Shown one piece after another: positions 3,957-56,075 of a stretch of DNA of 64,000 nt. Within the stretch, counting starts at the first letter, position 1; every line of letters begins with the position of its first letter. The translations under genes were made by a program, and so were the position numbers. Origin of the DNA: Leptospiraceae bacterium (GTDB lineage: Bacteria > Spirochaetota > Leptospiria > Leptospirales > Leptospiraceae); the NCBI GenBank assembly GCA_015075105.1, contig JABTUZ010000002.1:1-64000 (forward strand). The letters run 5' to 3'. The notes beneath the pieces are model-generated. The model worked only from the letters and a program-made list of their open reading frames with translations. It was not told the origin of the DNA and ran no database searches.

Positions 3957-4205
3957 TGCCCTTGATATAAGGTAAAATAATATCACGATAGAAATAAAAT
4001 TTTTGCAATTTTAGAAAAATTTTTTTAGTTTTTACACAAAAAGTCCCAAATCTGCACTAAATGCGTAATCTCTTGAAAACACCCAAAAAAGGTGGAGTTC
4101 CCACATTTTTGCGTGAAAGGTGAACAATTGGTATAAAGCATGCACTTTTCAGAAAAAAATGGAGTTCCCGCATTTTTGCACGAAAAGTGCAAATTTACAC
4201 TAAAA
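3957..4205 (-). repeat. Repeat array A, leader of DUF1564 copy 1
   Basis: Non-coding array with two cores: GTGGAGTTCCCAC at 4092-4104 and a GGAGTTCCCG variant at 4161-4170. The second is followed by a perfect hairpin, TTTGCAC/GTGCAAA (4175-4193, loop GAAAA). Between the cores is a module containing GGTGAACAATTGGTATAAAG and CATGCACTTT, which recurs in clusters B and C. Nearer the gene is a module ending in AAAAAGTCCCAAATCTGCAC, which recurs in C, D and E. It lies between the 3' end of the patatin-like gene and the DUF1564 start and points towards the latter. Confidence 0.85.
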
Positions 4206-4213
4206 GTGTATTA

Positions 4214-5090
4214 CTAAAAAAGCATTGATTGTTCGGATTCTAAAAAAGAAATACCTTTTTGAAAACCATGATCGTATGCTTTTTCCAAGCCCTCATCTGT
4301 TGCGGTGAGAAAGTTTACTCCTATATCACCTAGGTCTATGTCTGGCTGGATTTTTAAAATAGTGGCATCTTCCATTGTATCTGTAATTTCTATAGCCCCA
4401 AACAAATCTGAATAAAAACCTCCCATTTCAGCAGAAATAGCAATTACTTTATTAAACCCGGCTGCAATTGTTTCTTTAACAGGGCACCCACAAGTATAAG
4501 CACCATCGATATATGCCTCGTTATCAATCCACGCAGGCTCTTTCCAACCTTGAAGTAATCTAGTAGTAGCATACAAAACATCTTTTATATTATCTTTGTT
4601 TAATTGGTATTTATTTATTGTTTGTTTTGTTGTCAAATATGAGTGGCTTAAGGTTTTCATTCGCCCATTTAGCATCTTTTTTATTTGCAGCAATCATTAA
4701 TAATCTGCCAAGTTTCGTTGCACCTTTTTCAGTTTGAGTCATCTCCTTACCTGTTTCAGTTACAACTTTGCTAACTCCGATCATTAAACGAGTAGCTTCA
4801 TCAGAAAATAAATCATCAATAAAGTCAGGAATAGCTAAATCGATTCCAATTTTAATGCAAGCACTCATATCAAAATTAAATTCTTTTACTCCATGAACTC
4901 TCATTTTCCAATAATCTACAGAGTTTAACTTTTCTAATTTATTTACAGATGCATAAATAATAGGTATAGATAGTGAAGAAGCTCCAGAATATGCATTTGG
5001 TTTTAATCCCCCTCTATTAAATGCGTCGAGAACACCATGTATAAACACACCACGAAAAGAGCTTGCAGCGCAAGCAATTGCAAAGTTCAT
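4214..5090 (-). pseudogene. Patatin-like phospholipase, split by a frameshift
   Basis: Two overlapping frames together give a patatin-like protein of about 290 residues. The 5' part (5090 to 4611) carries an oxyanion-like SSFRGVFIHGVLD stretch and G-A-S-S-L (residues 36-40), matching the GxSxG nucleophile elbow except for its last glycine. The 3' part (within 4214-4693) carries the DGAY motif with the catalytic aspartate. The frames cross in an A-rich stretch around 4611-4640, so this is a real one-base mutation or a sequencing error. It overlaps the upstream DUF6125-like gene by 4 bases (ATGA), so it is the third gene of the TetR operon. Patatin identity is fairly sure; activity is doubtful. 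Confidence 0.65.
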
Positions 5091-5608
5091 AATTTCTCTC
5101 CATTAAAATAGAATTCAATAGTCATTTCGCATACCCCATATTTATGCATACTGCATCCCACTGGTTTTGGTTGAATTGAGTAATTAATTTCTAATTCATC
5201 GAGCCAACCAAAAATTCTTTCAACTATACCACATTCATATTTATCGATAACACCAAGTCGCCTAACGCCTTCAAAAGCAAAACATTTAGGAACTTTCCAT
5301 TCTAATTTCCCGTCTTCAGAAAAGTTCATTTCAAAATTCATGAATACCCCCTTGATAATTTGAAAACTACTTCTCAAAAAATCTTGTAAATCAGTGATAT
5401 TTGAAATCCTTTTCAAGCCTAAAATTTTTTTTAAGCGTTTAACCTCAATTTTCGCCATAGTACGGACTGCATTCTTATTTAATAAATTAGTTTTATCAAT
5501 TCCAAATTCTTCCAAACAGCCAGCAAACCAAGTTGCATCATGTGTCATCCAGTTAGCATTTAATAAATTTTTCAACTCATCTTTTTCTAATTCTTCATAA
5601 GCTTTCAT
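5087..5608 (-). CDS. DUF6125-like protein
   Basis: A 173-residue soluble protein without a signal peptide. The N-terminal half has W-M-T-H-D-x2-W (residues 20-27), then E-x-KR-x-K-x-LGL, a pattern I remember from DUF6125 proteins of anaerobes. Three cysteines and a His (CSMHKYGVC, about 152-160) lie near the C-terminus, where a ligand or metal site is possible. Function is unknown. It is the middle gene of a three-gene operon, 9 bases after the TetR gene and overlapping the patatin-like gene by 4 bases. Confidence 0.6.
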   Translation of the reverse strand: MKAYEELEKDELKNLLNANWMTHDATWFAGCLEEFGIDKTNLLNKNAVRTMAKIEVKRLKKILGLKRISNITDLQDFLRSSFQIIKGVFMNFEMNFSEDGKLEWKVPKCFAFEGVRRLGVIDKYECGIVERIFGWLDELEINYSIQPKPVGCSMHKYGVCEMTIEFYFNGEKL

Positions 5609-5617
5609 AGCATTCTC

Positions 5618-6304
5618 CTATTTGGCTAAACCATTAAAAATAATTTCTAAGCTATTTTTGTAATGAGTGGAGAGGTTTTTAAAATTTAAAGATGCACAAA
5701 GACCTGCGACTCCAAAAAAAATGCCTCCTACTGCCATTGAAACCTCATCAAGATTTGTAGCCCTCGGAAGTTCACCGTCATCTACCGCCTTTTTTAAGGA
5801 TTGAAAAATTAATGTCCTTAGTCCGTCTCCAGATATTTTTTCTATTCCGTCAACACTTCCAAATGTTATAGTTTTTTCTGCATCCGTTACCGGTTGAACA
5901 AATTTACTTCTGGATAAAATGTCTGCTCTTGCTTGATATGCTAAAAGTTCTTTCATTAAATATGGATGAAGCTCCGAGGTTTTGCCTGTATAGGAAAAGA
6001 ATTGATAAATCGAATCGAGCCCTGACTTTGATTTTTGAGAATATAAAAATAATTCAATACTCCAAAGCCCCACAAAATAAAAAAATATATCATCCTTTTG
6101 AGGAAAATAATTGTAAAACGAAGGCTCGCTTATTTCAGCTTTTTTGCAGAGATCTTTTATTTTAATTTCACTTGCAGGTTTATTTTTAAGTTCTTTGATT
6201 AAACTATGCAGAAGTCTCAATCTTGATTTTGCATATTTTATTTCACGAACTGTAAAATGGGACAAATTTACTTTCCCATATTTTTTAAAGACTTGATTTG
6301 GCAC
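5618..6304 (-). CDS. TetR-family transcriptional regulator
   Basis: A 228-residue regulator. Residues about 28-75 form the TetR DNA-binding domain, with the recognition region I-K-D-L-C-x-K-A-x-I-S-x-x-S-F-Y-N-Y-F and K-D-D-I. The remainder is a helical ligand-binding domain. It is first gene of an operon with a DUF6125-like gene and a patatin-like gene, so it probably controls that operon itself. Repeated operator-like sequences lie upstream at 6385-6417, and repeat array B sits further upstream in the same orientation. The ligand is unknown. Confidence 0.85.
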   Translation of the reverse strand: MPNQVFKKYGKVNLSHFTVREIKYAKSRLRLLHSLIKELKNKPASEIKIKDLCKKAEISEPSFYNYFPQKDDIFFYFVGLWSIELFLYSQKSKSGLDSIYQFFSYTGKTSELHPYLMKELLAYQARADILSRSKFVQPVTDAEKTITFGSVDGIEKISGDGLRTLIFQSLKKAVDDGELPRATNLDEVSMAVGGIFFGVAGLCASLNFKNLSTHYKNSLEIIFNGLAK

Positions 6305-6369
6305 GACTGTTCTCCTGTTCTTTGTCTTGGATATAGCAAAGTAAAATTTATTTTGAAGGAATTTATCAT

Positions 6370-6417
6370 ATTATACAATATTGCCAACTATAAAATTATA
6401 GTCAACTATAAAATTAT
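6370..6417 (-). promoter_or_regulatory. Candidate promoter and operator of the TetR operon
   Basis: CAACTATAAAATTAT occurs twice in direct repeat (6385-6399 and 6403-6417, 18 bases apart). The first copy is also part of an ACTATAA/TTATAGT inverted repeat. On the minus strand a TATAAT is at 6370-6375. This looks like a regulated promoter for the TetR gene; the protein that binds is inferred. Confidence 0.4.
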
Positions 6418-6455
6418 TTCTTTAGTCAATTTCTTTTTTTACAGAAAAATTGCCA

Positions 6456-6780
6456 AATCCGTATCAAGCACACACTTTACTAAAAATGAGTGGAGTTCCC
6501 ACATTTTTGCATGAAAAGTGCAAAATCTGCACTAAACGCGAAATTTCAAAAACTCTACTAAAGCTCAAAACCTCTATCTACAAGATAAACCGATTTGCAA
6601 AGATTCTACCTCTACTATTTCCGACCTCAGACCTCCGTCATCAGTCCTCTGAATTGGAGTTCCCACATTATTGCATAAAAGGTGAACAATTGGTATAAAA
6701 CATGCACTTTACTGAAAAATTGGAGATCCCACATTTTTACACGAAAAGTGCAGAATTTGCATTAAACGCGAAAAAGAAAA
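6456..6780 (-). repeat. Repeat array B, upstream of the TetR operon
   Basis: Three core copies: GTGGAGTTCCCAC at 6490-6502, TGGAGTTCCCAC at 6655-6666 and TGGAGATCCCAC at 6721-6732. The first and third are followed by TTTTTGCAT or TTTTTACAC, then GAAAAGTGCA and the ATCTGCACTAAACGCGAAA module. The second is followed by the GGTGAACAATTGGTATAAA module of clusters A and C. Orientation relative to the downstream gene is the same as in the DUF1564 leaders, although this gene is a TetR regulator. The rest of this 509-base gene-free stretch holds only A/T-rich sequence. Confidence 0.8.
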
Positions 6781-6813
6781 AACTTCCCAATATAGGAATC
6801 TATCAAAAATAAT

Positions 6814-7182
6814 TTAATAGCTTTTCTTTCTAACTAAAAAATAAATCAGAAGCCATACAGCACTTCTCATTCCCATTGCAAATATACTTTTAGTAGCAAC
6901 ATGAGCACTTGTGAAAAAAATAAACAAGAGAATAAATAATACTAAAATATTTCCAATAAGCACAACCGAGGTGAGCTGGATTCGCAAAGTGGAATTTTTC
7001 CAGATAAAAAATGCTACTGCCAGAGAAAAAATAGCCATCCCTACATTGTAAAATACAAGCCATAACAGAACAATTTCATCTGATTTTCTATGCCCCAGGA
7101 TAACAGAGATTCCTTCGATTATAGAAGGGATTGCGATAAGGAGAGATAGGAAAACTGAAAGTTTTAATGTATATTTTTTCAT
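6814..7182 (-). CDS. Small integral membrane protein, unknown
   Basis: Not recognised. From the ATG at 7182 it has 122 residues with about four hydrophobic segments (roughly 6-26, 38-60, 68-90 and 96-118) and a basic C-terminal RKKSY tail. An in-frame TTG lies 36 bases upstream, but the ATG has AAGGAAG just before it and gives a clean first helix, so it is preferred. It is divergent from the MarR gene and shares with it a short control region holding a perfect inverted repeat, so MarR may regulate both. Confidence 0.6.
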   Translation of the reverse strand: MKKYTLKLSVFLSLLIAIPSIIEGISVILGHRKSDEIVLLWLVFYNVGMAIFSLAVAFFIWKNSTLRIQLTSVVLIGNILVLFILLFIFFTSAHVATKSIFAMGMRSAVWLLIYFLVRKKSY

Positions 7183-7189
7183 AACTTCC

Positions 7190-7245
7190 TTGACAAATTG
7201 AAAATAGTTAGTATCCAAATATTTAGGAGCCTAATAATTTGTCAA
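7190..7245. promoter_or_regulatory. Divergent control region with nested palindromes (MarR operator candidate)
   Basis: TTGACAAATT (7190-7199) and AATTTGTCAA (7236-7245) are perfect inverted repeats flanking the gap between the membrane-protein gene and the marR-like gene. Between them sits TTAGGAGCCTAA (7223-7234), itself a palindrome. This suits a MarR dimer controlling both directions. Left and right arms could also pair in RNA. Binding is inferred. Confidence 0.5.
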
Positions 7246-7246
7246 A

Positions 7247-7783
7247 TTGAATATGAGTAGAAATTTAACCATTCTAACATCTGAAACCATGAAAGACATC
7301 CAAAATCGGATTCTATCGCAAAATCCTAAATTAAATAAAAATTCTATAATGGTTAGTTCGCGAGCTTTGCTATTTACAATTCAGTTAAGTTCCTTATTAG
7401 ATTCTTATTTTCAATCTTCAGGGTTATCTCAGCCTGGATTTTTAACCTTACTTATATTGAATACGTTATGCGAAAGAGAATGGACTGTTTTAGAATTGTC
7501 TGAAGTGATTCGTGTTAAACCTCCAACCATGACTGGAATTTTAGACACTTTAGAAAAAGAAGATCTAGTAATTCGCAAGAAGTCGAGTAGAGACAGAAGA
7601 ATAGTAACAGTGGAGTTAAGTAAATCTGGAAAAAAGAAAATCAGAAAAATTGGTCCTATTCATTTCTCAAACATTGAATCTGCTTTTGGAAAATTGGATG
7701 AAAAATTTTTTAAAAGTCAGAAGAAAATCATGAATAAAATCGAAGGTGCATTTTTAGAGTTTTCAAGGAGAGGTTTAAAATGA
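7247..7783 (+). CDS. MarR-family transcriptional regulator
   Basis: A winged-helix regulator of up to 178 residues. Residues about 60-130 hold the MarR core: LTLLILNTLCERE, the LSEVIRVKPPTMTGILDTLE recognition helix and the D-R-R wing (RDRRIVTVELSKSGKK). The start is uncertain: TTG at 7247, ATG at 7253 or ATG at 7289, none with an ideal ribosome site. The stop overlaps the following RND gene as ATGA (7780-7783), implying translational coupling. It probably represses itself and the pump through the palindromes upstream. Confidence 0.85.
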   Translation: MNMSRNLTILTSETMKDIQNRILSQNPKLNKNSIMVSSRALLFTIQLSSLLDSYFQSSGLSQPGFLTLLILNTLCEREWTVLELSEVIRVKPPTMTGILDTLEKEDLVIRKKSSRDRRIVTVELSKSGKKKIRKIGPIHFSNIESAFGKLDEKFFKSQKKIMNKIEGAFLEFSRRGLK

Positions 7784-10700
7784 AAAATATAGTTCAGTTT
7801 TTTATAGAAAGGAAAATGGTATTGGATATTTTTCTTGCAGCGCTTTTTCTTTTTGGGTATTTCAGTATTGTAAACTCTAAAAAAGAAGGTTTTCCTGAAA
7901 TACCACTAAATAAAATTTTTGTACAAACAATTGTACCAGGTGGTTCGGCTAAGGATATAGAAATCAATGTAACTTCAAAGATTGAAGACCAGATAAAAGA
8001 AGTAGAAGGGATCAAAGAAATTATATCTTATTCAGAAGAAGGTGTTTCAAAGATTGAGATACAAGGCTTAGAAAAACTAAAACCCAGTCAATTTCAGAAG
8101 TTATTTTCAGATATTGAAAATGCAATTTCTAAGATAGATGACTTTCCTACAAATATAAAAGGCAAGCCGTCTATTTGGGAGGTCAAATCTTCTGATATGC
8201 CTGTTATGGAAATTGCCTATACAGGTGAGTATAAAAACCTAAAACCTTATTTAGAGGATTTGAAAGAAAGATTAAGGGTCTTAAAAGGTGTATCTAAAAT
8301 AGATATTATCGGTTTGGGTGATGAAGAAATACTGATCAAAGTAGACCCAGTGAAAGCGAGAAACAATTTTTTGGATTTAAGAGCTATAGCAAATTCATTA
8401 AAAATGCGTAACCAAGAAGGCTCCGCAGGAATCATTTACTCAAACGAAGGAGAAAAAAAAGTTACCCTAGAAGGAAAATATAAAACTACAACCGAATTAC
8501 TAAATACTGAATTAGTTACAAATGAACTAGGAAACTCTATCAAACTAAGAGACGTAGCACAAATTGAATTTACACCAGAAGATAAAAAGCTAATCGTTAG
8601 AAATAATGGTAAACCGGGTGCGCTTCTTGCTATAAGAAAATTAGGCTCTGAAGACTTACTAAAAACTGTAGATAGGGTAAATGAAGTTTTAAAAAAAGAA
8701 ATCTTACCAGATGGGGTTGAGTCTTTGGTTTTGTTAGATCAATCTACACTTACAAGAGATAGAATTAATCTACTTGTTGGAAACTCTATCATGGGTTTTA
8801 TTTTAGTAGTTTTAGTATTATTTTATTTTTTAAATTTTCAGACTGCATTTTGGACTGCATTCGGAATTCCTTTTTCTTTGCTTGGAATGTTGATATTTTT
8901 AAAAGTCATGGATATTTCTATAAACCTAATTTCACTTGCTGGATTTATTATTATCATAGGTATGCTTGTGGACGATGCAGTAGTTATTGCAGAAAAGTAC
9001 AACACTAACTTAGAATCAGGAATGGGGAAAATTGACTCTGCGGTAAATGCGGTTCAAAGAATGTGGGCTCCAGTTGTTGCATCGGCTCTTACTACTATGG
9101 TTGCATTTGCCCCACTATTTTTGGTAGGTGGGTTTCCGGGTGCTTTCATCTGGACTATTCCTTTAATGGTGATCGTCGGGTTAAGCGTCTCTTTAAGTGA
9201 AAGTTTTTTTATACTCCCTTCTCATTTACTCCATTCGAATATTAAAAAAGTACAGCAAAAAAAAATTATGGAAGTACTCGAAAACTTATACAAAAAAAGC
9301 CTTATCTGGGCTTTACTGAATAAGTTTAAATTTCTTTTTACTGCGACCGTACTTCTGTTTCTCTCTCTATTCCTATTGAAAAATTATGTAAAAAAAGATC
9401 CTTTTCCTCAAGACGCTGCGGAAGGTTTTTTTGTAAATTTAACATTTCCACTTGGTTATACCTCAATTCAAACAGAAAGTAATTTACAAAAAATTGAAAA
9501 CTTTTTATTAAATATGCCTAAAGAAGAAATTTTAGGCCTAAGTTCTAGGATTGGTGTGCAAACAGAATCCAGCACCATAGATCGCGGAATCCAAAATAAT
9601 TTAGCGACCATATTTGTGTATCTTACCCCTTACCAAAATAGAAAAAGAACTGCAAACGAAATCATGGAAAACTTACGGTCTGAAATAAAAAAATTAAATG
9701 CGAAAGATAGTTTTCAGTACTCTTTGAATTTAAAAAGAATCGGTCCCCCCATGGGAAAGGATATTGAGATACGAGTCATATCAAATAACGATAGCCTAAG
9801 AGAAAAAAAGGTTAAGTCTATAGAAGAATTTTTAAAAAACAGCAAAGGCGTAAATAATATAGATACAAATTCTATTCGAGGTTTAGACGAGTATGTGTTG
9901 AAATTGAATTATCTTGTATTGTCTGTGGTTGGGCTTACCGCAGAGGATGTTTTAAACTCGATACGAATTGCTATTAATGGGATTGTAGTTACAGATATGT
10001 CTAGAACAGATGACACGGTAAATTTACGAGTATTGCTCGACGACAAAATCCATTTCAACGATTTAAAGAAAAATGATCAAGATTCTATTCAGGCAAAAAA
10101 TTTACTTCCTATTAAAAATAAGCAAGGAAATTTAATCAATTTAGACCGCATGATAAATATCCAAGAGAAAACCTCTCTTGCATCTGTGAAGCACATCAAT
10201 TCTATTCGTGCGGAGATTCTCACTGCTGGTGTAGATCAAGAAATAATTTCTCCTGTAGAATTAATGGACTTAGTTAGAAAAAATTTTCCAGACGAGAAAA
10301 ACCTACAAATTCAATTTTCAGGGCAGCCACTTGAGACAAATTTAATTTTTTCAGGGCTAACCACCGCAGCAATTTTTGCAATTCTTGGAATTTACCTTAT
10401 TATAGCGCTTATTTTTCAATCATACACAAGGCCTATTGTAGTTATGCTTTCTCTTCCATTTATGGCTATAGGGTTAGCCTTTGTACTTGTCACCCATAAT
10501 ATTCCTGGCTCTATGATGGTTGGTGTGGCTGTTGTAGGTTTACTTGGGGTTGTAGTCAATTCTTCCATTGTACTTGTGGATACTATTCGCGAGCTTGGAG
10601 ATAAAAAAAAGTTTGATATTCAAACGATAACCGAGGGAAGCGTATCAAGGCTTAGACCAATATTTTTGACAACAACTACTACAATCCTTGGAGTAATGCC

Positions 10701-10893
10701 TACAGGCTACGGGATTGGAGGTTACGACCCATTTTTATCCCACATGTCTTTGGTATTGGCTTATGGTCTTTTATTTGCTACAATGATAACTTTATTTATC
10801 GTACCGATTTTACTTTTAATAGAAAATTCGATTCCTAACCCATTTCAGGGTAGTAAAATAATGAAAATCTTTTCAAAAAAACTTGCAGAATAA
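7780..10893 (+). CDS. RND-family efflux transporter, MarR-coupled
   Basis: A 1037-residue RND permease. It has a first membrane helix at about 14-32, a periplasmic loop, TM2-6 including the conserved VDDAVVIAEK (TM4, near residue 398), a second loop, and TM8-12 with a second N-S-S-I-V-L-V-D stretch. It is quite divergent from the pump at 54-3227 and lacks adjacent adaptor and outer-membrane genes. Translational coupling to the MarR gene points to inducible expression. Whether it exports drugs, lipids or another envelope component cannot be read from the sequence. Confidence 0.9.
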   Translation: MKNIVQFFIERKMVLDIFLAALFLFGYFSIVNSKKEGFPEIPLNKIFVQTIVPGGSAKDIEINVTSKIEDQIKEVEGIKEIISYSEEGVSKIEIQGLEKLKPSQFQKLFSDIENAISKIDDFPTNIKGKPSIWEVKSSDMPVMEIAYTGEYKNLKPYLEDLKERLRVLKGVSKIDIIGLGDEEILIKVDPVKARNNFLDLRAIANSLKMRNQEGSAGIIYSNEGEKKVTLEGKYKTTTELLNTELVTNELGNSIKLRDVAQIEFTPEDKKLIVRNNGKPGALLAIRKLGSEDLLKTVDRVNEVLKKEILPDGVESLVLLDQSTLTRDRINLLVGNSIMGFILVVLVLFYFLNFQTAFWTAFGIPFSLLGMLIFLKVMDISINLISLAGFIIIIGMLVDDAVVIAEKYNTNLESGMGKIDSAVNAVQRMWAPVVASALTTMVAFAPLFLVGGFPGAFIWTIPLMVIVGLSVSLSESFFILPSHLLHSNIKKVQQKKIMEVLENLYKKSLIWALLNKFKFLFTATVLLFLSLFLLKNYVKKDPFPQDAAEGFFVNLTFPLGYTSIQTESNLQKIENFLLNMPKEEILGLSSRIGVQTESSTIDRGIQNNLATIFVYLTPYQNRKRTANEIMENLRSEIKKLNAKDSFQYSLNLKRIGPPMGKDIEIRVISNNDSLREKKVKSIEEFLKNSKGVNNIDTNSIRGLDEYVLKLNYLVLSVVGLTAEDVLNSIRIAINGIVVTDMSRTDDTVNLRVLLDDKIHFNDLKKNDQDSIQAKNLLPIKNKQGNLINLDRMINIQEKTSLASVKHINSIRAEILTAGVDQEIISPVELMDLVRKNFPDEKNLQIQFSGQPLETNLIFSGLTTAAIFAILGIYLIIALIFQSYTRPIVVMLSLPFMAIGLAFVLVTHNIPGSMMVGVAVVGLLGVVVNSSIVLVDTIRELGDKKKFDIQTITEGSVSRLRPIFLTTTTTILGVMPTGYGIGGYDPFLSHMSLVLAYGLLFATMITLFIVPILLLIENSIPNPFQGSKIMKIFSKKLAE

Positions 10894-10919
10894 AATGCTT
10901 AAGCAAATTTTTATATATT

Positions 10920-11606: not shown

Positions 11607-11682
11607 ATTTCATTTTCTTAAATCTATGAAATTACTACGAAAAACCCTTTTCAAATATTGTAGTAATAGAAAGTCTAACCTT

Positions 11683-24177: not shown

Positions 24178-24415
24178 AATTTTTGTGGGATCTCCACTCT
24201 TTTCTGTAAAGTGCATGCTTTATACCAATTGTTCACCTTTCACGCAAAAATGTGGGAACTCCACTTTTTTAGGGGATTTCAAGAGTTTACGCCTTTAGTG
24301 CAGATTTGGGACTTTTTCTGTAAAAGCTAAAAAAATTTTCCAAAAATTACAAAAATTTTTTTTCTAAAGCAAACTTTTTTTACCTTATAAAGAAGAGCAG
24401 AAAAATTTACTTTAA
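24178..24415 (+). repeat. Repeat array C, leader of DUF1564 copy 2
   Basis: Fills the 328 bases between ribF and DUF1564 copy 2. Two cores, GTGGGATCTCCAC (24185-24197) and GTGGGAACTCCAC (24252-24264), flank the module GCATGCTTTATACCAATTG. The gene-proximal module (CAAGAGTTTACGC, TTTAGTGCAGATTTGGGAC) follows. Reverse-complemented array A aligns with this from end to end, with few differences by eye, up to the A/T-rich segment before the start codon. Confidence 0.85.
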
Positions 24416-24425
24416 GGAGAAATTT

Positions 24426-24890
24426 ATGAACCCAGAAAAATATGTAGAAACACAATCGAGCTTGCTTGTTCCGGCAAAATACATGGACGAGTTCAATAGA
24501 AGAACGACAGGTTTATCAAGGAGGAGATACCTAAACGTATTGTTGAACAGATACAGAAATGTGATTCTTTGGGGAACTTTTAAGAAGATGGAGAGGGTGA
24601 AAAAGGCCTATCAAGAAGTCGGGCAAAATTTGCAGAAGAAGAATTTTACCCCATATAACGAGGACTGGATTGAGCTTGGCATTCTTGCAGACTGGCTCGG
24701 TACCACAAAGACAGCTCTTTTTACTCTTCTGTTAGTGCTTGACCTTGCCGAATGGGACATAATTCTCCCCGGCAGATTCTTCGAGAATGGAGTTCCCACC
24801 CCGGTGACCACGATTGCGGGGGGAGCTTACCTCTCCAAGAGAAAAACGACCCGCTACAATAGGCTGATACGACAAAAGAGCAAATATTAG
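24426..24890 (+). CDS. DUF1564 family protein, copy 2
   Basis: A 154-residue member of the same family as copies 1 and 3, but clearly more diverged (roughly two thirds identical by eye). The core W-x2-LG-x2-A-x3-G-x2-K-x-ALF, LLVLDLAEWD and the basic tail KRKTTRYNRLIRQK are kept. It has a strong TAAGGAG site. Its 3' half looks less A/T-rich than neighbouring genes. Function is unknown; DNA or RNA binding to the adjacent repeats is a hypothesis. Confidence 0.85.
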   Translation: MNPEKYVETQSSLLVPAKYMDEFNRRTTGLSRRRYLNVLLNRYRNVILWGTFKKMERVKKAYQEVGQNLQKKNFTPYNEDWIELGILADWLGTTKTALFTLLLVLDLAEWDIILPGRFFENGVPTPVTTIAGGAYLSKRKTTRYNRLIRQKSKY

Positions 24891-44534: not shown

Positions 44535-44740
44535 TATTTTTCTATTCTTGCCTTCTGATATATGATAAAAAAATATCGCAATAGAAATAGATTTCTTTCT
44601 AAATTTACAGAAAAAGTCCTAAAATTGTACTAAACGTGTAATTCACCGAAAACGATGGAGATCCCACATTTTTGCACGAAAAGTGCAACATCTGCACTAA
44701 AAGCGAAAAATCAAAACCTCTAACGAAAAAAAAATCTAAC
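44535..44740 (-). repeat. Repeat array D, upstream of the methylase gene
   Basis: One core, TGGAGATCCCAC (44656-44667), followed by a TTGCAC/GTGCAA hairpin (44672-44688) and ATCTGCACTAAAAGCGAAA. On its gene side the TTACAGAAAAAGTCC module and the A/T-rich stretch of the DUF1564 leader are recognisable (ATATCGCAATAGAAATAG), but no DUF1564 gene follows. Instead the R-M operon begins at 44250. The remainder of this 596-base gene-free stretch shows no other structure. Confidence 0.75.
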
Positions 44741-48421: not shown

Positions 48422-48662
48422 AATAGCCTCTATCAATGATTTGAATTTTAAAAAATTCTGCAAATAAAAAATTTTTCTAAAAGTATATTTCCCCTAAAAA
48501 GACTTTTTGCAAATGAACTATTCATCAAAATTTCAGCTTCGGTAATCATTACTCTGAGAATTTCTTAGAAAAAATACATTAAGGTCAATAGAGAGTTATC
48601 CTATTCTATGCTCTTTTACTTCCGTATTGCTAAATTGTGACAAAAGTTTGAATATAAAAATT

Positions 48663-48678
48663 TATGATATTTATCATA
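48663..48678. promoter_or_regulatory. Perfect palindrome upstream of the nos cluster
   Basis: TATGATATTTATCATA is a 7+7 perfect inverted repeat with a TT centre. It is 20 bases upstream of the FNR-like box. It looks like a second regulator site, perhaps of Fur, PerR or NsrR type; which one cannot be said from this. Confidence 0.4.
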
Positions 48679-48697
48679 ATGAAAATTTAGAAGTATT

Positions 48698-48711
48698 TTG
48701 ATATAGGTCAA
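48698..48711 (+). promoter_or_regulatory. FNR/DNR-like box for the nos cluster
   Basis: TTGATATAGGTCAA matches the FNR/DNR consensus TTGAT-N4-ATCAA at nine of ten positions. Its centre lies about 36 bases before the start point predicted from TATGAT at 48729, close to the class II activator position. Control by oxygen limitation or nitric oxide is an inference consistent with the downstream genes. Confidence 0.6.
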
Positions 48712-48786
48712 TTAAACTTAAAATTTTCTATGATAGAAACATAAGTATATAAAATATGTTCATATACAGGAGGAATATAGAAAATC

Positions 48787-49254
48787 ATGAAAAAAAGAAA
48801 TACTTACTCGGTGAGTCTCACTCTTTTCATTCTTATTTTTGTTTTAGGGATTGGCTGCTCTAAAAAAGAAGAGAATGCAAGCAGTGAAGAATCTGGTAAA
48901 AGTAAAATAAATCCTATGGAAGTTAAGGGAATTGGTCCAGTTTCAAAAGTTGATCTTGGGGCTTTAGATGCAAAAAGAGCAGGTAAAGGAAAGACTGAGT
49001 TTGAGTCTAAATGCTCGGCTTGTCATAAGATTGATGAAAAAGTAGTGGGGCCTGCCATAAAAGGAATTACTACCAGAAGGACTCCCGAATGGATTATGAA
49101 TATGATTTTGAATCCGGTCGAGATGACTCAGAAAGATCCTATTGCAAAAGAGCTTCTTGAAGAGCATCTAACACAAATGACTTTCCAAAATGTAAGTCAA
49201 GACGAAGCAAGGGATATGCTTGAATATTTCCGACAGGTAGATGAACAAAAATAA
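48787..49254 (+). CDS. Mono-haem c-type cytochrome lipoprotein of the nos cluster
   Basis: A 155-residue lipoprotein (signal ending LGIGC, C24). The mature part has one haem site C76-S-A-C79-H80 and a likely axial Met in Q-M-T-F near 137. It is the first gene of the nos cluster, 19 bases before nosZ. The obvious role is electron donor to NosZ, corresponding to the NosC-type cytochromes of clade II clusters. It is anchored at a membrane by lipid. Confidence 0.88.
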   Translation: MKKRNTYSVSLTLFILIFVLGIGCSKKEENASSEESGKSKINPMEVKGIGPVSKVDLGALDAKRAGKGKTEFESKCSACHKIDEKVVGPAIKGITTRRTPEWIMNMILNPVEMTQKDPIAKELLEEHLTQMTFQNVSQDEARDMLEYFRQVDEQK

Positions 49255-49273
49255 ATTTAACAAGGAGTAAAAT

Positions 49274-51181
49274 ATGCTGGCAAAAGCAATGCTGAAACTT
49301 GCGTTACTCGCAATTTCTTTCAGCTTAATCAACCAGTGCGGCGGTTCCGGAGGGAAGGCTACCTTAGCGGCTAACGCAGCACAAAAAGTATATGTTGCCC
49401 CAGGTGAAAAGGACGAAGTATATGCCCTTTTGTCTGGAGGATTTAACGGACAGGTAAGTGTACAAGGTATTCCTTCAGGAAGAGTATTCAAAATTATTCC
49501 TGTATTTTCATTGCACACTGAAAATGGGTATGGATTTGACGAAGAAACTAAAGATATGCTTCTCACTTCCAAAGGTTATATTCCTTGGGATGATACTCAT
49601 CATCCGGAGGCTTCTCTAACCGATGGAAATCACGACGGTCGTTGGTTATTCATTAATGGAAACAACACTCCAAGGATTGCAAGAATTGATCTGACTACTT
49701 TTGAAACAAAAGAAATCATAGAGATTCCAAACATTGCAGGGAATCACTCTTCTCCTTTCCTTACCGAGAACACAGAGTACGCAATGTCTGCAACCAGATT
49801 TAGTATTCCTGTTCCTCAAAGAGATATCGCTATCGAAGAAATGGGAAAAGGTAAGTTCAATGGTGTTCTTTCCATGATCAAAATTGATCCAAAAACAGGA
49901 AAGATGAGTCTTGATCTACAAACTATGCTACCTGCTTATGATTATGATTTGGCTCGTTGTGGAAAAGGGCCTTCTCGTGATTGGTGCTTTTTTAGTATGT
50001 ACAATACTGAAATGGCGTTTCAAATGCTTGAGGTTGGGGCTTCAAAAAAAGATAAGGATTATATCCTAGCTTTCAATTGGAAAAAAGCAAGTGAATGTAA
50101 GGCAAAAGCAAGAGACTTTAGTGGTACTTATGTTCACAATATATGGCCTGAAAACCAAAAAACTGTTTCAACCAAACATAATGGCGTGAAAATGTTAGAC
50201 CCGAAAGATTGCCCTGGAATAGCGTATTTTTTACCGACTCCAAAAAGTCCACACGGTGCTGACGTTGATCCAACAGGTGAATACATTGTAGGTGGTGGAA
50301 AATTAGCTACGATTATTTCAGTCCACTCTTTTTCTAAACTTTTAAAAGCCGCAACAGACCCGGCAGCAAAAGATGGAGAAGCTGGAGGAATTCCTATTTT
50401 AAAATATGAATCAACTCTTGCAGGTGAAGTAAAAAAACCATGTCTTGGTCCTCTACATACAGAATTTGACAACAATGGGTATGCTTATACTTCTTGTTTT
50501 GTTAGCTCCGAGGTAGTAAAATGGAAACCCGGTACATGGGAAGTAATACAAAAACTTCCTGCATACTATAGCGTTGGTCACTTAAGTATTGTGGGTGGCG
50601 ATAATAAAAAACCTTTCGGAAAATATCTACTTGCTATGAATAAAATCACCAAGGATAGATACTTACCTGTAGGAATGGAATTGCCTCAATCTGCACAGCT
50701 CTACGATATTTCTGGAAGTAAAGCCGAGCTTTTGGCTGACTTTCCTACAATTGGGGAACCTCATTACGCCCAGATGATTCCAGCGAAACTTCTCAAAGAT
50801 AAAACTAAAAAGATTTATCCTCTTGAAGAAAACAAGCACCCTTATGCTGCAAAAAAAGAGTCTGAGGCTAAAGTAGTTAGAGAAGGAAATGTAGTTAGAG
50901 TGTATTTAACTGCAATCCGATCTCATTTTAAGCCGGACATGGTTCAAGTGAAAAGAGGAGACTTAGTGTATTTCCACGTTACAAATCTCGAGCAAGACTT
51001 TGATATTCCGCACGGATTTGCAATTGCAGGTGCACCTTTACCAAACATCCTTGTGATGCCAGGTCAAACTCGCACGGTGAAATGGGAAGCGAAAGAAGTT
51101 GGAGTATTTCCTTTCTATTGTACAGATTTCTGCTCTGCTCTGCATCAGGAAATGCAACAATACATCAGGGTAACTCCTTAG
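49274..51181 (+). CDS. nosZ: Nitrous oxide reductase, clade II-like
   Basis: A 635-residue NosZ reducing N2O to N2. CuZ histidines are seen in DDTHHPEAS (H109, H110), AGNHSS (H158), SPHGAD, PLHTEF, GHLSI and EPHYAQ. The CuA site is H580, then C616-x3-C620-x3-H624-x2-M627. The N-terminus is a plain Sec-like signal with no twin arginine, as in clade II enzymes. A cysteine at 22 (INQC) could even be lipidated, although Gln before it is unusual. Context (NosB-like protein, NosL, NosD, NosF, NosY; no NosR) also fits clade II. Confidence 0.95.
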   Translation: MLAKAMLKLALLAISFSLINQCGGSGGKATLAANAAQKVYVAPGEKDEVYALLSGGFNGQVSVQGIPSGRVFKIIPVFSLHTENGYGFDEETKDMLLTSKGYIPWDDTHHPEASLTDGNHDGRWLFINGNNTPRIARIDLTTFETKEIIEIPNIAGNHSSPFLTENTEYAMSATRFSIPVPQRDIAIEEMGKGKFNGVLSMIKIDPKTGKMSLDLQTMLPAYDYDLARCGKGPSRDWCFFSMYNTEMAFQMLEVGASKKDKDYILAFNWKKASECKAKARDFSGTYVHNIWPENQKTVSTKHNGVKMLDPKDCPGIAYFLPTPKSPHGADVDPTGEYIVGGGKLATIISVHSFSKLLKAATDPAAKDGEAGGIPILKYESTLAGEVKKPCLGPLHTEFDNNGYAYTSCFVSSEVVKWKPGTWEVIQKLPAYYSVGHLSIVGGDNKKPFGKYLLAMNKITKDRYLPVGMELPQSAQLYDISGSKAELLADFPTIGEPHYAQMIPAKLLKDKTKKIYPLEENKHPYAAKKESEAKVVREGNVVRVYLTAIRSHFKPDMVQVKRGDLVYFHVTNLEQDFDIPHGFAIAGAPLPNILVMPGQTRTVKWEAKEVGVFPFYCTDFCSALHQEMQQYIRVTP

Positions 51182-51322
51182 TTTAACCAAAGAATTGAAT
51201 AGAAGTGGAGCAGAAAATATTTTTTTGCTCCACTCTATTTACAAAAATTGAAGCGAAAAGAAAAAATAATATTTCGATTCTTAGTAAAATCAAAAAATCG
51301 AAAAACAAACAGAGGCTCTAAT

Positions 51323-51916
51323 ATGTTTAAAGTAATCAGCGGTTTAAACCGTCACTTAATCTTAGCAATAGTTGTTCTTTTAATCGGAGTTTATTTTGTA
51401 CCGATTTGGTATATTTCCCTTGCAGCCCCTCAGTATCCAGAGGGTTTAAGTATGAATATCTGGATTAATAAAATTAGTGGGGGCACTCCTTATGATTTGC
51501 AAAATATCAATCTGCTAAACCATTATATCGGGATGGCTGAAATCGTAGAAACATCCATTCCGGAATTATTATTCATGCCATACATTTTAGCGTATATGAT
51601 AGCAGGAGCAATCGTAACCTATTTTTTTCCGAGATATATTATGTACATTTTTGGTATAGTAAACTTTGTTTTAGTTGCTAGTGCAGGGTTGTATGATTTT
51701 TGGAGATGGGAATACAATTACGGACACAACTTAAAACCTGACGCTGCCATTGTAGTTCCAGGGATGACTTACCAACCACCACTTTTATTTTGCAAAGAAT
51801 TATTGAATATCACGGCTTGTAGCCTTCCTCACTTAGGTGCATTTTTTCTATTTGCTTCTTTGGGGATATTGATATTTGTAGTATGGAAAGAAAAAACTAT
51901 TAAGGTTGAAAATTAA
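51323..51916 (+). CDS. Membrane protein of the nos cluster, NosB-like
   Basis: A 197-residue protein from the ATG at 51323 (GAGG before it; a TTG at 51248 would add 25 basic residues). It has about four membrane segments. After the first comes the conserved-looking L-A-A-P-Q-Y-P-E-G-L, and I-N-L-L-N-H-Y-I-G-M follows. A membrane protein at this place, right after nosZ, is typical for clade II clusters. The job may be in electron transfer or copper-site assembly; it is not known to me. Confidence 0.65.
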   Translation: MFKVISGLNRHLILAIVVLLIGVYFVPIWYISLAAPQYPEGLSMNIWINKISGGTPYDLQNINLLNHYIGMAEIVETSIPELLFMPYILAYMIAGAIVTYFFPRYIMYIFGIVNFVLVASAGLYDFWRWEYNYGHNLKPDAAIVVPGMTYQPPLLFCKELLNITACSLPHLGAFFLFASLGILIFVVWKEKTIKVEN

Positions 51917-51931
51917 ACAAGAGGTATAACA

Positions 51932-52411
51932 ATGAAAAGAAAAGATTTTATTTCAAAAGCGACAGCAATTACAACAGGTCTTGTTGCAACAGGGATCTTG
52001 TCCCAAACAAAAAAACACGACCATGACCATTCTGACCCAAACCACAAACACGATCCGAAACACGACCACTCAAAACATATTAAATATGGTATGTTGATTA
52101 CAAAAATAATGGATTGCATCAAAACAGGAAATATCTGCAAGGATCATTGCCTAATGTCTCTTGCAGATGGAGATAAGACTATGTTGGGTTGTGCAAAATC
52201 TGTAAATGAAATGCTCTCTTCTTGCGAAGCACTATTTCAACTTGCAGTTACGAATTCTGAATTCACTCCAAAAATGGCAACTCTGTGCATGGAAATTTGT
52301 TTAAAGTGTGAAAAAGAATGCCAAAAACACGCATCCAAACATAAAGTGTGTGCTGATTGTGGTGCAAGCTGTAAAGCGTGTGCTGATGAATGCAAAAAAA
52401 TAGCAGCTTAA
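51932..52411 (+). CDS. Copper-storage (Csp/DUF326-like) four-helix-bundle protein, exported
   Basis: A 159-residue protein with 14 cysteines arranged in C-x3-C and similar spacings along predicted helices (DCIKTGNICKDHC, CMEICLKCEKEC, CADCGASCKACADEC), as in the copper-storage proteins Csp. The N-terminus (KRKDFISKATA) resembles a twin-arginine signal with KR, so it is probably exported, as Csp1 is. A His/Asp-rich linker follows. Its position between nosZ and nosL suggests a copper reservoir for NosZ maturation. Confidence 0.8.
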   Translation: MKRKDFISKATAITTGLVATGILSQTKKHDHDHSDPNHKHDPKHDHSKHIKYGMLITKIMDCIKTGNICKDHCLMSLADGDKTMLGCAKSVNEMLSSCEALFQLAVTNSEFTPKMATLCMEICLKCEKECQKHASKHKVCADCGASCKACADECKKIAA

Positions 52412-52417
52412 TCTAAA

Positions 52418-52903
52418 ATGAATTTCAAAAAAATTATAATAGCGATAACTATTTTATCGCTTTTTTTTTGTGGGTGCATTGATAAAAATCCGGAAAATAT
52501 TTCTCCAGGAGAAAAGAAATGTGAACACTGCAAAATGGATATAGCACAAATGAACTACCATTCACAAATCATCTCTCCCAAGGGAAGAAAATTTCATTTT
52601 GATTCTATAGAGTGTATGATTTCCTATTGGCTAGAAAATGAACATAGGACAGAAAAACTATTTGTTAGAAATTTTTCTGACTTTAAAAATTCAAAAGAAT
52701 GGCTTGAGATTTCCAATACATTTTTTTTGAAATCAGATAAATTAATTTCTCCGATGAGTGCAAATATTTCTTCTTACAAAAATCTTGAAGGTGCAAACAA
52801 AGCCAAAGATGAATATGGCGGGAAAATTTTAGACCTCTCTGAATTGAAACAATACATTCGTACAGATTGGAAAAAGGAATTATCAGAGAAAACAAAACAC
52901 TAA
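52418..52903 (+). CDS. nosL: NosL copper chaperone, lipoprotein
   Basis: A 161-residue lipoprotein (signal ending LFFCGC) with the Cu(I)-binding motif C35-x2-C38-x-M40 and a conserved F-D-S-I-E-C-M region. NosL hands copper to NosZ for the CuZ site. It lies 6 bases after the Csp-like gene and its TAA overlaps the ATG of nosD (TAATG). Confidence 0.9.
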   Translation: MNFKKIIIAITILSLFFCGCIDKNPENISPGEKKCEHCKMDIAQMNYHSQIISPKGRKFHFDSIECMISYWLENEHRTEKLFVRNFSDFKNSKEWLEISNTFFLKSDKLISPMSANISSYKNLEGANKAKDEYGGKILDLSELKQYIRTDWKKELSEKTKH

Positions 52904-54135
52904 TGCTTTATTTATTATTTTTTATCGGTATCTTTTCTATTTCAGAAACTTTTGCATCTACCCTAATTGTAGATCCTAAAGGGAAAATTTCAACCATTAC
53001 GGAAGCTATACAATTAGCAAAAGACTCCGATACAATTGAAATTTCACCCGGGACTTATTCCGAGGGAATGATTACTATAACTAAAAAACTTCGTTTGATT
53101 GCAAAAGGAAATGTAATCGTGGACGGTCAAACAAAAGAGCATGTAATCAGTATCAATGCGGATAACGTCCGAATTGAAGGAATGCAAATCATGAACAGTG
53201 GAGTTAGCTCCATGAGAGAATTTGCAGGGATTCATGTTAAAGGCTCCAAAAACTGTGAACTTGTAGGAAATAAATTAATCAATAACGCTTATGGTTTTTA
53301 TCTTGAAAAATCAGAAAATTGTTTAATCGAAAACAACGAATCAATCGGAAATGCTAAAGATGAAATTTACGGTGGAAATGGAATTCATCTCTGGTCAGCT
53401 TCCGGGCACACCATTAAAGGAAATACTCTCAACAAACACAGAGACGGTTTATACTTTGAATTTTCATCTAATTTAAAAATTGAAAATAATTCAAGCTCTG
53501 ATAGCATTCGCTATGGAATGCACTTTATGTTTTCCCATGAAAATGTATTTCGTAAAAATAAATTTTTTCGTAACTCCTCAGGTGTTGCAATTATGTATTC
53601 ACGAGATACGATAGTAGAAGAAAACACTTTTGAGCAAAACTGGGGTAGTGGGTCTCATGGAATATTGTTAAAAGAAATTTCTACAAGTAGATTTTATAAA
53701 AATATTTTTAAAGAAAATGCACAAGGTATATATGCAGACAACGCAAATAGAAATATTTTTTCAGAAAATCAATTTTTGAGAAATGGATGGGCTATCAATA
53801 TTCTTGGAAACTGTGAAGAAAATAAGTTTGAAAGAAATAATTTCATAGAAAACGTGTTTGATCTTGGAACAAATTCTCGTGACAACTCAAATGATTATAC
53901 TGGAAATTATTGGGATAAATACAGAGGATTCGATATGGATAAAGATGGCGTAGGAGACAAGCCTCACACACCAGTGCAATTTTTTGGATATTGGGTAAAC
54001 GTATATCCGGTACTGACACTTCTCTTTGAGTCTCCAATAGTAGAAATGTTAGAAATAGCAGAAAAGGCATTTCCAGTAATTAGCCCGGTATCCCTTTTAG
54101 ATTCAAAACCAAGTTTAAGAGTATTTCAATTATGA
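52903..54135 (+). CDS. nosD: NosD periplasmic maturation factor
   Basis: A 410-residue protein from the ATG at 52903, which overlaps the nosL stop and starts a clean signal peptide. An in-frame start 36 bases earlier would spoil it. It is a right-handed beta-helix of many carbohydrate-binding/sugar-hydrolysis-type repeats (N-x-I-x-x-N patterns from about 80 to 340). It works with NosF and NosY in assembling CuZ. The stop overlaps nosF as ATGA. Confidence 0.92.
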   Translation: MLYLLFFIGIFSISETFASTLIVDPKGKISTITEAIQLAKDSDTIEISPGTYSEGMITITKKLRLIAKGNVIVDGQTKEHVISINADNVRIEGMQIMNSGVSSMREFAGIHVKGSKNCELVGNKLINNAYGFYLEKSENCLIENNESIGNAKDEIYGGNGIHLWSASGHTIKGNTLNKHRDGLYFEFSSNLKIENNSSSDSIRYGMHFMFSHENVFRKNKFFRNSSGVAIMYSRDTIVEENTFEQNWGSGSHGILLKEISTSRFYKNIFKENAQGIYADNANRNIFSENQFLRNGWAINILGNCEENKFERNNFIENVFDLGTNSRDNSNDYTGNYWDKYRGFDMDKDGVGDKPHTPVQFFGYWVNVYPVLTLLFESPIVEMLEIAEKAFPVISPVSLLDSKPSLRVFQL

Positions 54136-54845
54136 TAGTAATAAAAAATTTATCAAAAACATTTAACGGAAATAAAGTAATCAGTGATTTTTCTCTTGCA
54201 ATCGAAGAAAATCGAATCACTGCTCTTGTAGGTCCCAATGGCTCAGGAAAGACTACACTTTTAAAATGCATTCTCGGACTGACCTTCCCTGATCCAAACA
54301 GCTCAATTGAAAAAGATGGAATCAAAATTTCTTCAATAGAAGAAGAAGTGCATAAAGAAATCGGCTATATGCCTCAAACTCCAAATTTTCCTAAAAATTT
54401 AAAAGTTACAGAAATCCTCGATATATTCAAAAGAATAGATTCTGCTCCTCCCGATTACATGCTTGAACTCATGGGAGATTTAGAAATCTGGAAATTTGAA
54501 AATAAATTATTTGGAGAGCTATCAGGTGGAATGAAGCAAAAAATAAATATCCTGCAATGCTTCGGCTTTAGAAAGAAACTCTATATTGCAGATGAACCTA
54601 CTTCCAGTTTGGATCCGCACATGTCTTACTTCTTAAAAAGTCTATTAAAGAAAAGAAAAGAATCAGGCGCATCCATTATTTTTACTTCTCACATAATGAG
54701 TGAAGTACAAGAAATTGCTGAAAAAGTCTGTCTTCTTGTAGATGGCCGATTGGTTCTACACGAAACACCTTCAAATATTTTATCCATGAACAATGCTTCT
54801 AACTTAGAAGAAGCAATGAGAATGTACTGGGAGAAAAGAAAATGA
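54132..54845 (+). CDS. nosF: NosF ABC ATPase
   Basis: A 237-residue ATPase with Walker A GPNGSGKTT, Q-loop (M-P-Q-T), signature LSGGMKQK and Walker B with A-D-E-P-T-S-S-L-D. With NosY and NosD it forms the transporter needed for CuZ, probably for a sulfur species or conformational work on NosL/NosD. Both its ends overlap neighbours as ATGA, so translation is coupled. Confidence 0.93.
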   Translation: MIVIKNLSKTFNGNKVISDFSLAIEENRITALVGPNGSGKTTLLKCILGLTFPDPNSSIEKDGIKISSIEEEVHKEIGYMPQTPNFPKNLKVTEILDIFKRIDSAPPDYMLELMGDLEIWKFENKLFGELSGGMKQKINILQCFGFRKKLYIADEPTSSLDPHMSYFLKSLLKKRKESGASIIFTSHIMSEVQEIAEKVCLLVDGRLVLHETPSNILSMNNASNLEEAMRMYWEKRK

Positions 54846-55648
54846 AATTATTTTCACAAGATTTTCGTCAAATCGTGTATCTTGAATTTTATGAAAATAT
54901 CCGCAACAAATGGGTTTTTCTTTATGCAATTGCTTTTTTTATGATTTGCTCTTTGACAATTTATTTTGGTGGGAAACAAAGCTCTAAGATTACAGCCAGT
55001 TTACTGAATATTTTTCTATTACTAATTCCAATCTTTGGGCTATTGTTTGGCAGCGTAAATTTTATGGAATCTCTTCCGTTTATGGAGGTAATTTTATCTC
55101 GTCCTGTAAGTAGGGCAAAACTATTTCTTGGCAAATGGATTGGAGCTAACCTCGGACTCAATCTCGGTTTTGTTTCTGGTACAGCAATTCCTTTGATCTT
55201 ATTTATGGATCCAAGCGAAGGAAAAATTTTTCTCTCGATACAACTACTGATTTATGGAGTTTTATTAAACAGTATATTTCTTAGTCTCTCATTTCTTGCG
55301 TCCATCATAATTATAAAAAAAGAAATGGTACTCGGAAGTATTTTAATTATTTGGTTTTACTTTTACTTTTTATACGATCTGTTAATAGTCGGGATTAGTA
55401 TTTTCTTTGGAGAGTATCCTCTCGAAGTTCCAGTTCTTGGAATGGTTTTGCTAAACCCTTTAGATTTAGTCAGAGTAATTATTTTACTACAAATGGATTC
55501 TGCGGTATTACTCGGATTTACTTCAGCCTTCTTTCAAAAATATTTAGGAAATGTAAGCGGGATTTTTCTTTGCTTTGTTTTCTTAAGTGTGTGGATTATT
55601 ACACCTATTTTTATCGGTGTCAGGATCTTTAAAAGCAAAGATCTGTAA
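54842..55648 (+). CDS. nosY: NosY ABC permease
   Basis: A 268-residue membrane protein with six hydrophobic segments (about 27-45, 55-75, 97-120, 133-160, 165-190 and 235-262) and the ABC2-type short loop L-S-R-P-V-S-R. It is the partner of NosF and last gene of the nos cluster. Downstream is repeat array E, with no clear terminator. Confidence 0.9.
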   Translation: MKLFSQDFRQIVYLEFYENIRNKWVFLYAIAFFMICSLTIYFGGKQSSKITASLLNIFLLLIPIFGLLFGSVNFMESLPFMEVILSRPVSRAKLFLGKWIGANLGLNLGFVSGTAIPLILFMDPSEGKIFLSIQLLIYGVLLNSIFLSLSFLASIIIIKKEMVLGSILIIWFYFYFLYDLLIVGISIFFGEYPLEVPVLGMVLLNPLDLVRVIILLQMDSAVLLGFTSAFFQKYLGNVSGIFLCFVFLSVWIITPIFIGVRIFKSKDL

Positions 55649-55699
55649 AGGTTTATCCTATCGTATTTTCTCATAAACTAATTTATGTCTAAAATACCC

Positions 55700-56075
55700 G
55701 CAAAAATGTTGGAACCCCAATTCGGGGGACGAATGATTGAAATAGTGGAGTTGGAATTTTTTTTATATAGCTCTATCTTTTTGTTAGAGGTTTTTAGCTT
55801 TAGTATAGTTTTTTAAAATTTCGCATTTAGTGCAGATTTTGCTCTTTTCGTGCTAAAATGTGGGAACTCCATTCTTTTTTTGAGGAATTGCACATTTAGT
55901 ACGGGTTCAGAACTTTTCGTGCAAAAATGTGGGAACTCCACTTTTTTGGGGGATTTCAAGAGATTACGCATTTAATGCAGAATTTGGACTTTTTCTGTAA
56001 AAGTTAAAAAATTTTTTCTAAAATCGCAAAAATTTTATTTCTATCACGATATTATTTTACCTTATATCAAGAGGC
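55700..56075 (+). repeat. Repeat array E, leader of DUF1564 copy 3
   Basis: Three cores: a degenerate GTTGGAACCCCAA (55708-55720), GTGGGAACTCCAT (55860-55872) and GTGGGAACTCCAC (55929-55941). Modules seen in A-D recur: CGCATTTAGTGCAGATTT before the second core, TTTTCGTGCAAAAATG before the third, and AAGAGATTACGCATTTAATG after it. The A/T-rich stretch ATTTCTATCACGATATTATT is nearly the same as upstream of copy 1. It fills the gap between nosY and DUF1564 copy 3. Confidence 0.85.

Follow-up and report, generated by a model that had tools for sequence, protein, structure and literature searches.

Arrays of a lineage-specific repeat precede DUF1564 genes in a Leptospiraceae genome, with an inverted copy of the repeat core inside the gene and a parallel layout in a second genus

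The 64,000-nucleotide stretch of a Leptospiraceae bacterium analyzed here (the window; assembly GCA_015075105.1, contig JABTUZ010000002.1, or G000:C2:1-64000 in our numbering of genomes and contigs) contains clusters of a short noncoding repeat, several of which stand before genes of the family DUF1564 (Pfam PF07600). Throughout this genome, the repeat arrays lie upstream of DUF1564 genes in fixed orientation, and the array core recurs, inverted, within the DUF1564 coding sequence; a second genus has a parallel layout with an unrelated core, and its in-gene core is conserved at the nucleotide level. With moderate confidence, we propose that the arrays are the cis half, and DUF1564 the DNA-binding half, of a two-part module with genus-specific sites. 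That a second genus follows this plan while using another core suggests that the protein and its DNA sites evolve together.

The core, TGGGAWCTCCA, is present in 208 exact copies in the 3.42-Mb genome (four contigs), compared with a single copy of the reversed pattern, and 186 core copies are found genome-wide at up to one mismatch, against one reversed; the window has 22 matches at up to three mismatches, against an average of 7.45 and a maximum of 16 in 100 shuffles. The same core word occurs at most 17 times in each of 99 other genomes of the phylum, and the array family therefore belongs to this lineage. We searched 79 stretches around the listed cores and the DUF1564 matches (460,878 bases) together with the window, an area in which degenerate arrays may be missed and which includes N bases (2,501 in locus L117 and 400 in L139). 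The fetched stretches hold 241 cores at up to one mismatch, most of them extragenic and 28 inside DUF1564. We defined 76 arrays with 186 cores, each array by construction a run of same-strand cores, and a few of these arrays are single doubtful cores (C1:335474, C1:1116717, C1:1095503, and C2:1032913). The cores within an array are direct repeats, one to five of them upstream of each DUF1564 gene, and the spacing is exactly 67 bp in 59 cases and exactly 164 bp in 17, with the others near these values.

A DUF1564 gene or fragment lies within 700 bp downstream of 51 of the 76 arrays and is on the same strand in all 51, the median distance between the last core and the first DUF1564 match being 164 nt. 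At E <= 0.001, PF07600 is matched in 49 places, 47 of which exceed the curated cut-off; counting fragments, there are 60 DUF1564 places, several of them broken by stops, and 51 of the 60 have an array. For the 25 arrays without DUF1564, the next gene of at least 100 aa is on the same strand in 12 cases and on the opposite strand in 13, so that fixed orientation is a rule for DUF1564 only. At least five of these arrays retain the DUF1564 leader (C1:316344, C1:1724981, C2:44656, C2:754480, and C2:996185) and, judged by this leader, look like remnants left after gene loss. Loci L083 and L086 are copies of a duplicated 1.6-kb segment, one with DUF1564 and the other without it and broken in the leader. 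DUF1564 is found in 18 of the 100 genomes searched, often in ten or more copies each (among at most 31 matches listed per genome for the relatives), and the named loci encoding relatives are from Leptospiraceae metagenome-assembled genomes.

The upstream-core word GGAACTCCA is present in inverted orientation in 27 of the 28 full-length DUF1564 open reading frames (ORFs) of this genome, about 100 bp before the stop codon, where it encodes G-V-P, and it is also found in 21 of the 28 upstream regions (500 bp). The full form, TGGGAACTCCA, is in 21 of the 28 upstream regions and 13 of the 28 ORFs. A genome of genus g5 (G004), with 27 DUF1564 matches, follows the same layout, but its core, TTGTAGTAACAAC, is unrelated and occurs there in 113 copies at up to one mismatch compared with three reversed; the corresponding counts in G000, G001, G002, G003, and G006 are 5-10 and 2-8 reversed. 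The G004 genes and cores listed (23 of 27 genes, 100 of 113 cores) show TTGTAGTAACAAC upstream on the same strand in 16 of 23 genes and inverted at the 3′ end in 11 of 23, with none on the wrong strand. At the level of words, TGTAGTAACAA is shared by 8 of 14 G004 upstream regions and 8 of 14 ORFs, and a reversed-ORF control, in both G000 and G004, had no 10- or 11-base word in common with the upstream regions. The G004 in-gene core encodes V-V-T-T, and the wobble bases of these four codons are fully conserved in all paralogs with that codon box (P = 4.9e-5, a value to be taken with caution as the paralogs are related), whereas the 41 four-fold columns have a mean of 0.71 and only five of them show full conservation.

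Two AlphaFold models of DUF1564, from an alignment of 52 sequences led by the window protein encoded at 56138-56605 and one of 28 sequences led by a G004 protein, both contain a beta-alpha-alpha unit twice in a single chain. In Foldseek searches of the PDB, chains E/F/G of the F-plasmid relaxosome take ranks 1-10 with the window-led model (prob 0.82-0.99) and ranks 1-9 with the G004-led model (prob 0.89-1.00); we equated these chains with TraY via the three TraY molecules of the paper, as the search tool names the complex only. VIA-align gives Z scores of 8.9 over 95 residues for TraY, 6.1 over 78 for AvtR (4hv0), and 3.9 for VirC2. A sequence search for solved structures returned one match (E 0.71), which we took as chance, and PF07600 is the only Pfam match at E <= 0.001 in the three window proteins. 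The models predict that a single DUF1564 chain folds into an entire ribbon-helix-helix (RHH) dimer, and the protein probably grips DNA. RHH proteins generally read DNA with their first strand, and the motif in this strand of DUF1564 is uniform within each of three genomes and different between them: TQSSLL in 31 of 32 matched proteins of G000, TVST[LF]R in 13 of 13 of G004, and TSCT[LV]L in 15 of 15 of G003, with a mixture in G006. A figure legend in PMC12117103 gives the first strand of TraY as the DNA-reading strand, and other passages of that paper describe F TraY as a whole RHH dimer within a single polypeptide, three molecules of which line up as a train on the origin of transfer, oriT, two in direct orientation and one inverted.

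In the two-part module that we favor, the core would be the DUF1564 binding site, and DUF1564 would load onto the upstream array as a train and could bridge from there to the inverted in-gene site. Such bridging might control the gene itself (autoregulation) and its sister copies as well, because all paralogs of a genome have the same core. The pair of sites bracketing the gene could also mark the ends of a unit spreading in the genome, and arrays without DUF1564 would at least partly be remnants of gene loss. With a predicted fold, a candidate site, and a different site in each of two genera, a family whose function was unknown becomes a protein-site pair open to testing. Should the in-gene site prove to be required, a DNA signal would be evolving inside coding DNA in concert with an array outside it, and the repeat family would have a means of staying tied to its own gene.

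The window features, by position, are:

3426..3917, minus strand: DUF1564 gene, 163 aa, clade d1/d3 (PF07600, 71.2 bits; cut-off 25)
3544..3556, plus strand: core-like GGTGGAACTCCAA, inverted within the DUF1564 ORF (three mismatches)
3918..4205, minus strand: array 1 and leader, cores 4092-4104 and 4159-4171
6456..6780, minus strand: array 2, without DUF1564, cores 6490-6502, 6654-6666, and 6720-6732; a TetR-type gene lies 187 bp on
24178..24425, plus strand: array 3 and leader, cores 24185-24197 and 24252-24264
24426..24890, plus strand: DUF1564 gene, 154 aa, clade d2 (PF07600, 51.5 bits; cut-off 25)
24787..24799, minus strand: inverted core GTGGGAACTCCAT within the DUF1564 ORF, encoding G-V-P-T (one mismatch)
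44535..44740, minus strand: array 4, single core 44655-44667, with a DUF1564-type leader and no DUF1564 gene (putative remnant)
55700..56137, plus strand: array 5 and leader, cores 55708 (degenerate, three mismatches), 55860-55872, and 55929-55941
56138..56605, plus strand: DUF1564 gene, 155 aa, the protein modelled, with two predicted beta-alpha-alpha units (PF07600, 68.3 bits)
56499..56511, minus strand: core-like GGTGGAACTCCAA, inverted within the DUF1564 ORF (three mismatches)

A first-pass annotation of the window had described eleven cores in five clusters, mosaics of a few modules, and a DUF1564 gene after three of the clusters; all of this is borne out, the modules being the 67-bp unit and the ~164-bp unit. 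It overlooked the inverted core-like sequence, which is inside all three DUF1564 ORFs of the window. It also had every array pointing the same way relative to the next gene, whether DUF1564, a TetR operon, or a restriction-modification (R-M) operon. The TetR-type gene is present, and the R-M assignment is judged from a single 187-aa ORF with an N6_N4 methylase domain, 406 bp downstream of its array. The shared orientation stands for DUF1564; with the remaining 25 arrays oriented at random, which the annotation had itself named as grounds for giving up its claim, the TetR and R-M arrays are no evidence for a general leader, and both associations look incidental. The R-M array is the one at C2:44656 that retains a DUF1564 leader, and the leader comparison leaves the TetR array without a clear status as a remnant. 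The claim that the leader is better conserved than the protein is mildly supported, the leaders of clusters 1 and 3 being 85.5% identical and their ORFs 75.6% (nucleotides), where the same lenient aligner gives 74-81% for seven pairs that include the TetR or R-M leader.

Several observations weigh against a protein with its own genus-specific sites. The C-terminal third of DUF1564 has a predicted local distance difference test (pLDDT) score below 50 in both models, and the Foldseek E-values (0.017-0.43) are all above 0.001. The in-gene core of clade d1/d3 is one base short, and the wobble positions at the G000 in-gene core are not special, with 8 of 26 listed columns fully conserved. The tie is looser in G004, where most of the listed cores (70 of 100) have no listed DUF1564 gene nearby. 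We found no recurrent upstream core in common with the ORF in the DUF1564-bearing genomes G003, G006, G008, G014, and G017, and the arrays are therefore not family-wide. A T-run follows 118 of the 186 cores, as in a terminator. Finally, a palindromic operator needs no inversion, and an in-gene copy that is always inverted also suits inverted termini or RNA pairing.

Under pairing, transcripts of the arrays would base-pair with the in-gene core and silence DUF1564 mRNAs, either in cis or in trans, and the inverted orientation seen in both genera is exactly what complementarity requires. The core itself speaks otherwise: it is a pseudo-palindrome of 11-13 bp (TGG-N5-CCA) with A or T at its centre, 97 of the 186 array cores reading TGGGAACTCCA (centre A) and 73 reading TGGGATCTCCA (centre T), and the centre base is the sole variation in 170 of the 186, although selecting cores at up to one mismatch favors such an outcome. 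Such freedom would be expected at the centre of a palindrome bound by a protein, and it argues against RNA pairing, where a T at the centre breaks the match to the in-gene copy, as does the missing base in clade d1/d3. In one of the two unit classes, double changes in two mutually exclusive stems number 35 (shuffled mean 20.1) and 30 (shuffled mean 17.8), neither reached in any of 500 shuffles, but these counts are inflated by related units; stem 1 is absent from the other class, the core hairpin has no covariation, and Rfam has no match in the window at gathering scores. A mutual-information measure of covariation was dropped as it was dominated by unit subfamilies. The functional RNA that the first-pass annotation suggested is thus weakly supported, by these modest compensating changes, and we think silencing by pairing improbable. 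The mobile leader or recombination site that it offered as alternatives are possible roles for the arrays.

In the short units, CTTTTTT or a similar stretch directly follows the core, and in the long units the core is followed by AATTCGGAGG; one unit class has a series GTGCA/TGCAC/GTGCA/GTGGG before the core at 10-bp steps, which would share one helix face. The core hairpin and its T-run resemble a terminator in the direction of the gene (one found where shuffles average 0.2, and two in another comparison with the same average), and the arrays could be transcription terminators that insulate the gene from read-through. We regard this as very unlikely, as 68 of the 186 cores, notably those of the 164-bp units, have no T-run of four within nine bases, the G004 core has no following T-run in four aligned genes, and the inverted in-gene copy is left unexplained.

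Inverted termini invite a different account, in which the upstream and in-gene cores are the ends of a small element consisting of array and DUF1564. DUF1564 would mobilize it together with a nuclease acting in trans, and the arrays would represent 5′ ends and remnants. Copies of the ORF at unrelated places are up to 97% identical, the homology between copies stops near the stop codon, and the in-gene core is always inverted; many arrays start at or just before a core, and four aligned G004 genes are conserved from the upstream core on. DUF1564 is beside ribF in this genome and in none of 11 relatives, and one L. interrogans PF07600 protein is labelled 'mobile element protein' in UniProt, according to a passage of PMC12457778. 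However, DUF1564 has no transposase motif, the 3′ edge of the homology is ~100 bp past the in-gene core, and the 3.3-kb locus of the genome's sole full-length Y1 transposase gene contains no core. We found no target-site duplication or clean empty site, and blastn with both flanks of 51 elements gave no locus with the flanks joined; L072 and L108 match the 5′ flanks of L114 and L120, not their 3′ flanks. Some DUF1564 neighbors recur in relatives (21 protein-locus pairs, 12 at >=50% identity, counts that have no computed null), and some of these places may be old. We consider such an element rather unlikely.

A sharp edge is equally expected from gene conversion between old paralogs, and near-identical copies at unrelated places with edges near the stop fit transposition and conversion alike. 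DUF1564 would then be an old paralog family homogenized by conversion, its flanks unrelated, with the arrays as passive tandem repeats and the in-gene match due to chance; the period-67 and period-164 units do fit slippage. Chance is hard to reconcile with an inverted in-gene match in two genera with unrelated cores that is absent from the reversed-ORF control, or with the G004 wobble conservation, and we give this reading little credence.

The 3′ flanks have a composition of their own: in the first 30 nt after the DUF1564 stop, A is at least 0.6 and T at most 0.1 in 16 of 32 elements, compared with 1 of 348 control genes. These A-rich, T-poor flanks of ~60 nt (for example, window 56600-56660; L196-L235) differ even between copies with 95-97% identical ORFs, in a comparison of 22 of the 31 ORFs, the nine without a located start having been left out. 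Of 40 loci in G003, G005, and G006, 24 have a CGAAGCTATGCC-like motif (>=7/12) at 59-64 nt past the stop, consistent with a 3′ region of fixed length and not with random tailing. Retroposition with a poly(A)-like tail was rejected on this fixed distance and on a search with the reverse transcriptase model PF00078 only, which gave no match at E <= 0.001 in G000, G004, or G006 and one below the cut-off in G003. An integron attC site was rejected by eye, the tail not being palindromic; no integrase search was made.

Among known systems, the nearest kind is the pairing of repetitive extragenic palindromic (REP) sequences and REPINs with RAYT genes, alike in plan and not in protein. REP sites flank RAYT genes; here too, a short genome-specific palindromic repeat in many copies is tied to the copies of a gene for a dedicated protein, here a putative DNA-binding one, and matching sites flank the gene on either side. 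The tie between REPINs and RAYTs is described in PMC3116915. As in REP families, there are more than 100 extragenic palindromic copies (the 208 exact cores), but close inverted pairs, the replicative unit of REPINs, are not typical here, the repeats being direct and not alternating, with one site inside the coding sequence. The gene differs as well: it is itself multicopy, and its product is a predicted RHH protein and not a Y1 (HUH) transposase, the one full-length Y1 gene of the genome and one partial match lying elsewhere. A REPIN-RAYT-like partnership without a transposase, in which a multicopy single-chain RHH gene has a genus-specific core multiplied upstream and inverted in its coding sequence, and in which array, in-gene copy, and DNA-reading strand change together between genera, is a possibility that we put forward tentatively. 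As a separate observation, the full-length Y1 ORF (151 aa, G000:C2:1282651-1282992) is ~2 kb from a DUF1564 array, which may be chance, given that regions within 2.3 kb of an array make up 10% of the genome.

The pairing of VirC2 with overdrive is a system comparable to that of TraY with oriT. AvtR, a tandem-RHH regulator of an archaeal virus and the second fold match, is a single viral regulator, and no function is implied by the match. Operators inside a coding region are found in lac (O2) and gal; sites upstream of and within the gene would likewise permit a bridging loop, although here it is the gene of the putative repressor itself that has the inner site, and this is always inverted. The likeness to F TraY lies in the single-chain RHH dimer, predicted for DUF1564, and in a train on direct and inverted subsites, as passages of PMC12117103 describe; unlike TraY, DUF1564 is dispersed, multicopy, and chromosomal, without a sequence match to solved structures or a match in the plasmid collection. 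One protein searched against each of the plasmid and phage collections gave no match, none was confirmed among 249 candidate stretches of viral contigs (alignment A2), and an 18-base array pattern had no match in viral contigs. We found no paper naming DUF1564; PF07600 is named in passing only, and the titles and abstract openings retrieved with other terms contain nothing on these repeats.

A few further features of these regions are worth recording. By eye, a TTCG(T)-T-run-GCA-like stretch precedes the DUF1564 start in G003, G004, G006, and G000, and may be the origin of the G000 unit end TTTTCGTGCAAAAATG. A close inverted pair of cores is not typical; one pair, at C2:204878-205044, resembles a miniature inverted-repeat transposable element (MITE), and the MITE-like stretch of ~180 bp there (G000:C2:204878-205054, L116) is bounded by inverted GTGGGAACTCCACTTTTTTAG, with a similar one at C1:1770989 (L103). 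The sequence GACTTTTTGCAGGTG is a repeated end 5′ of several arrays (L086:2922-3865; C2:935079, C2:1009677, C2:133470, C1:582299, and C1:284656), and is probably the end of an insertion sequence. At L072, L108, L114, L120, and L099, mosaic neighborhoods of small genes have 250-400-bp blocks in varying combinations beside DUF1564 fragments. Two arrays without DUF1564 in L110 (C1:1942569 and C1:1943475) are upstream of a ParA-like ORF and an RHH-antitoxin-like ORF, both named by eye, and a 21-bp tandem repeat, TTGGAACTCCACCTAAAACTG, contains a core-like word at G000:C1:227840 (L077).

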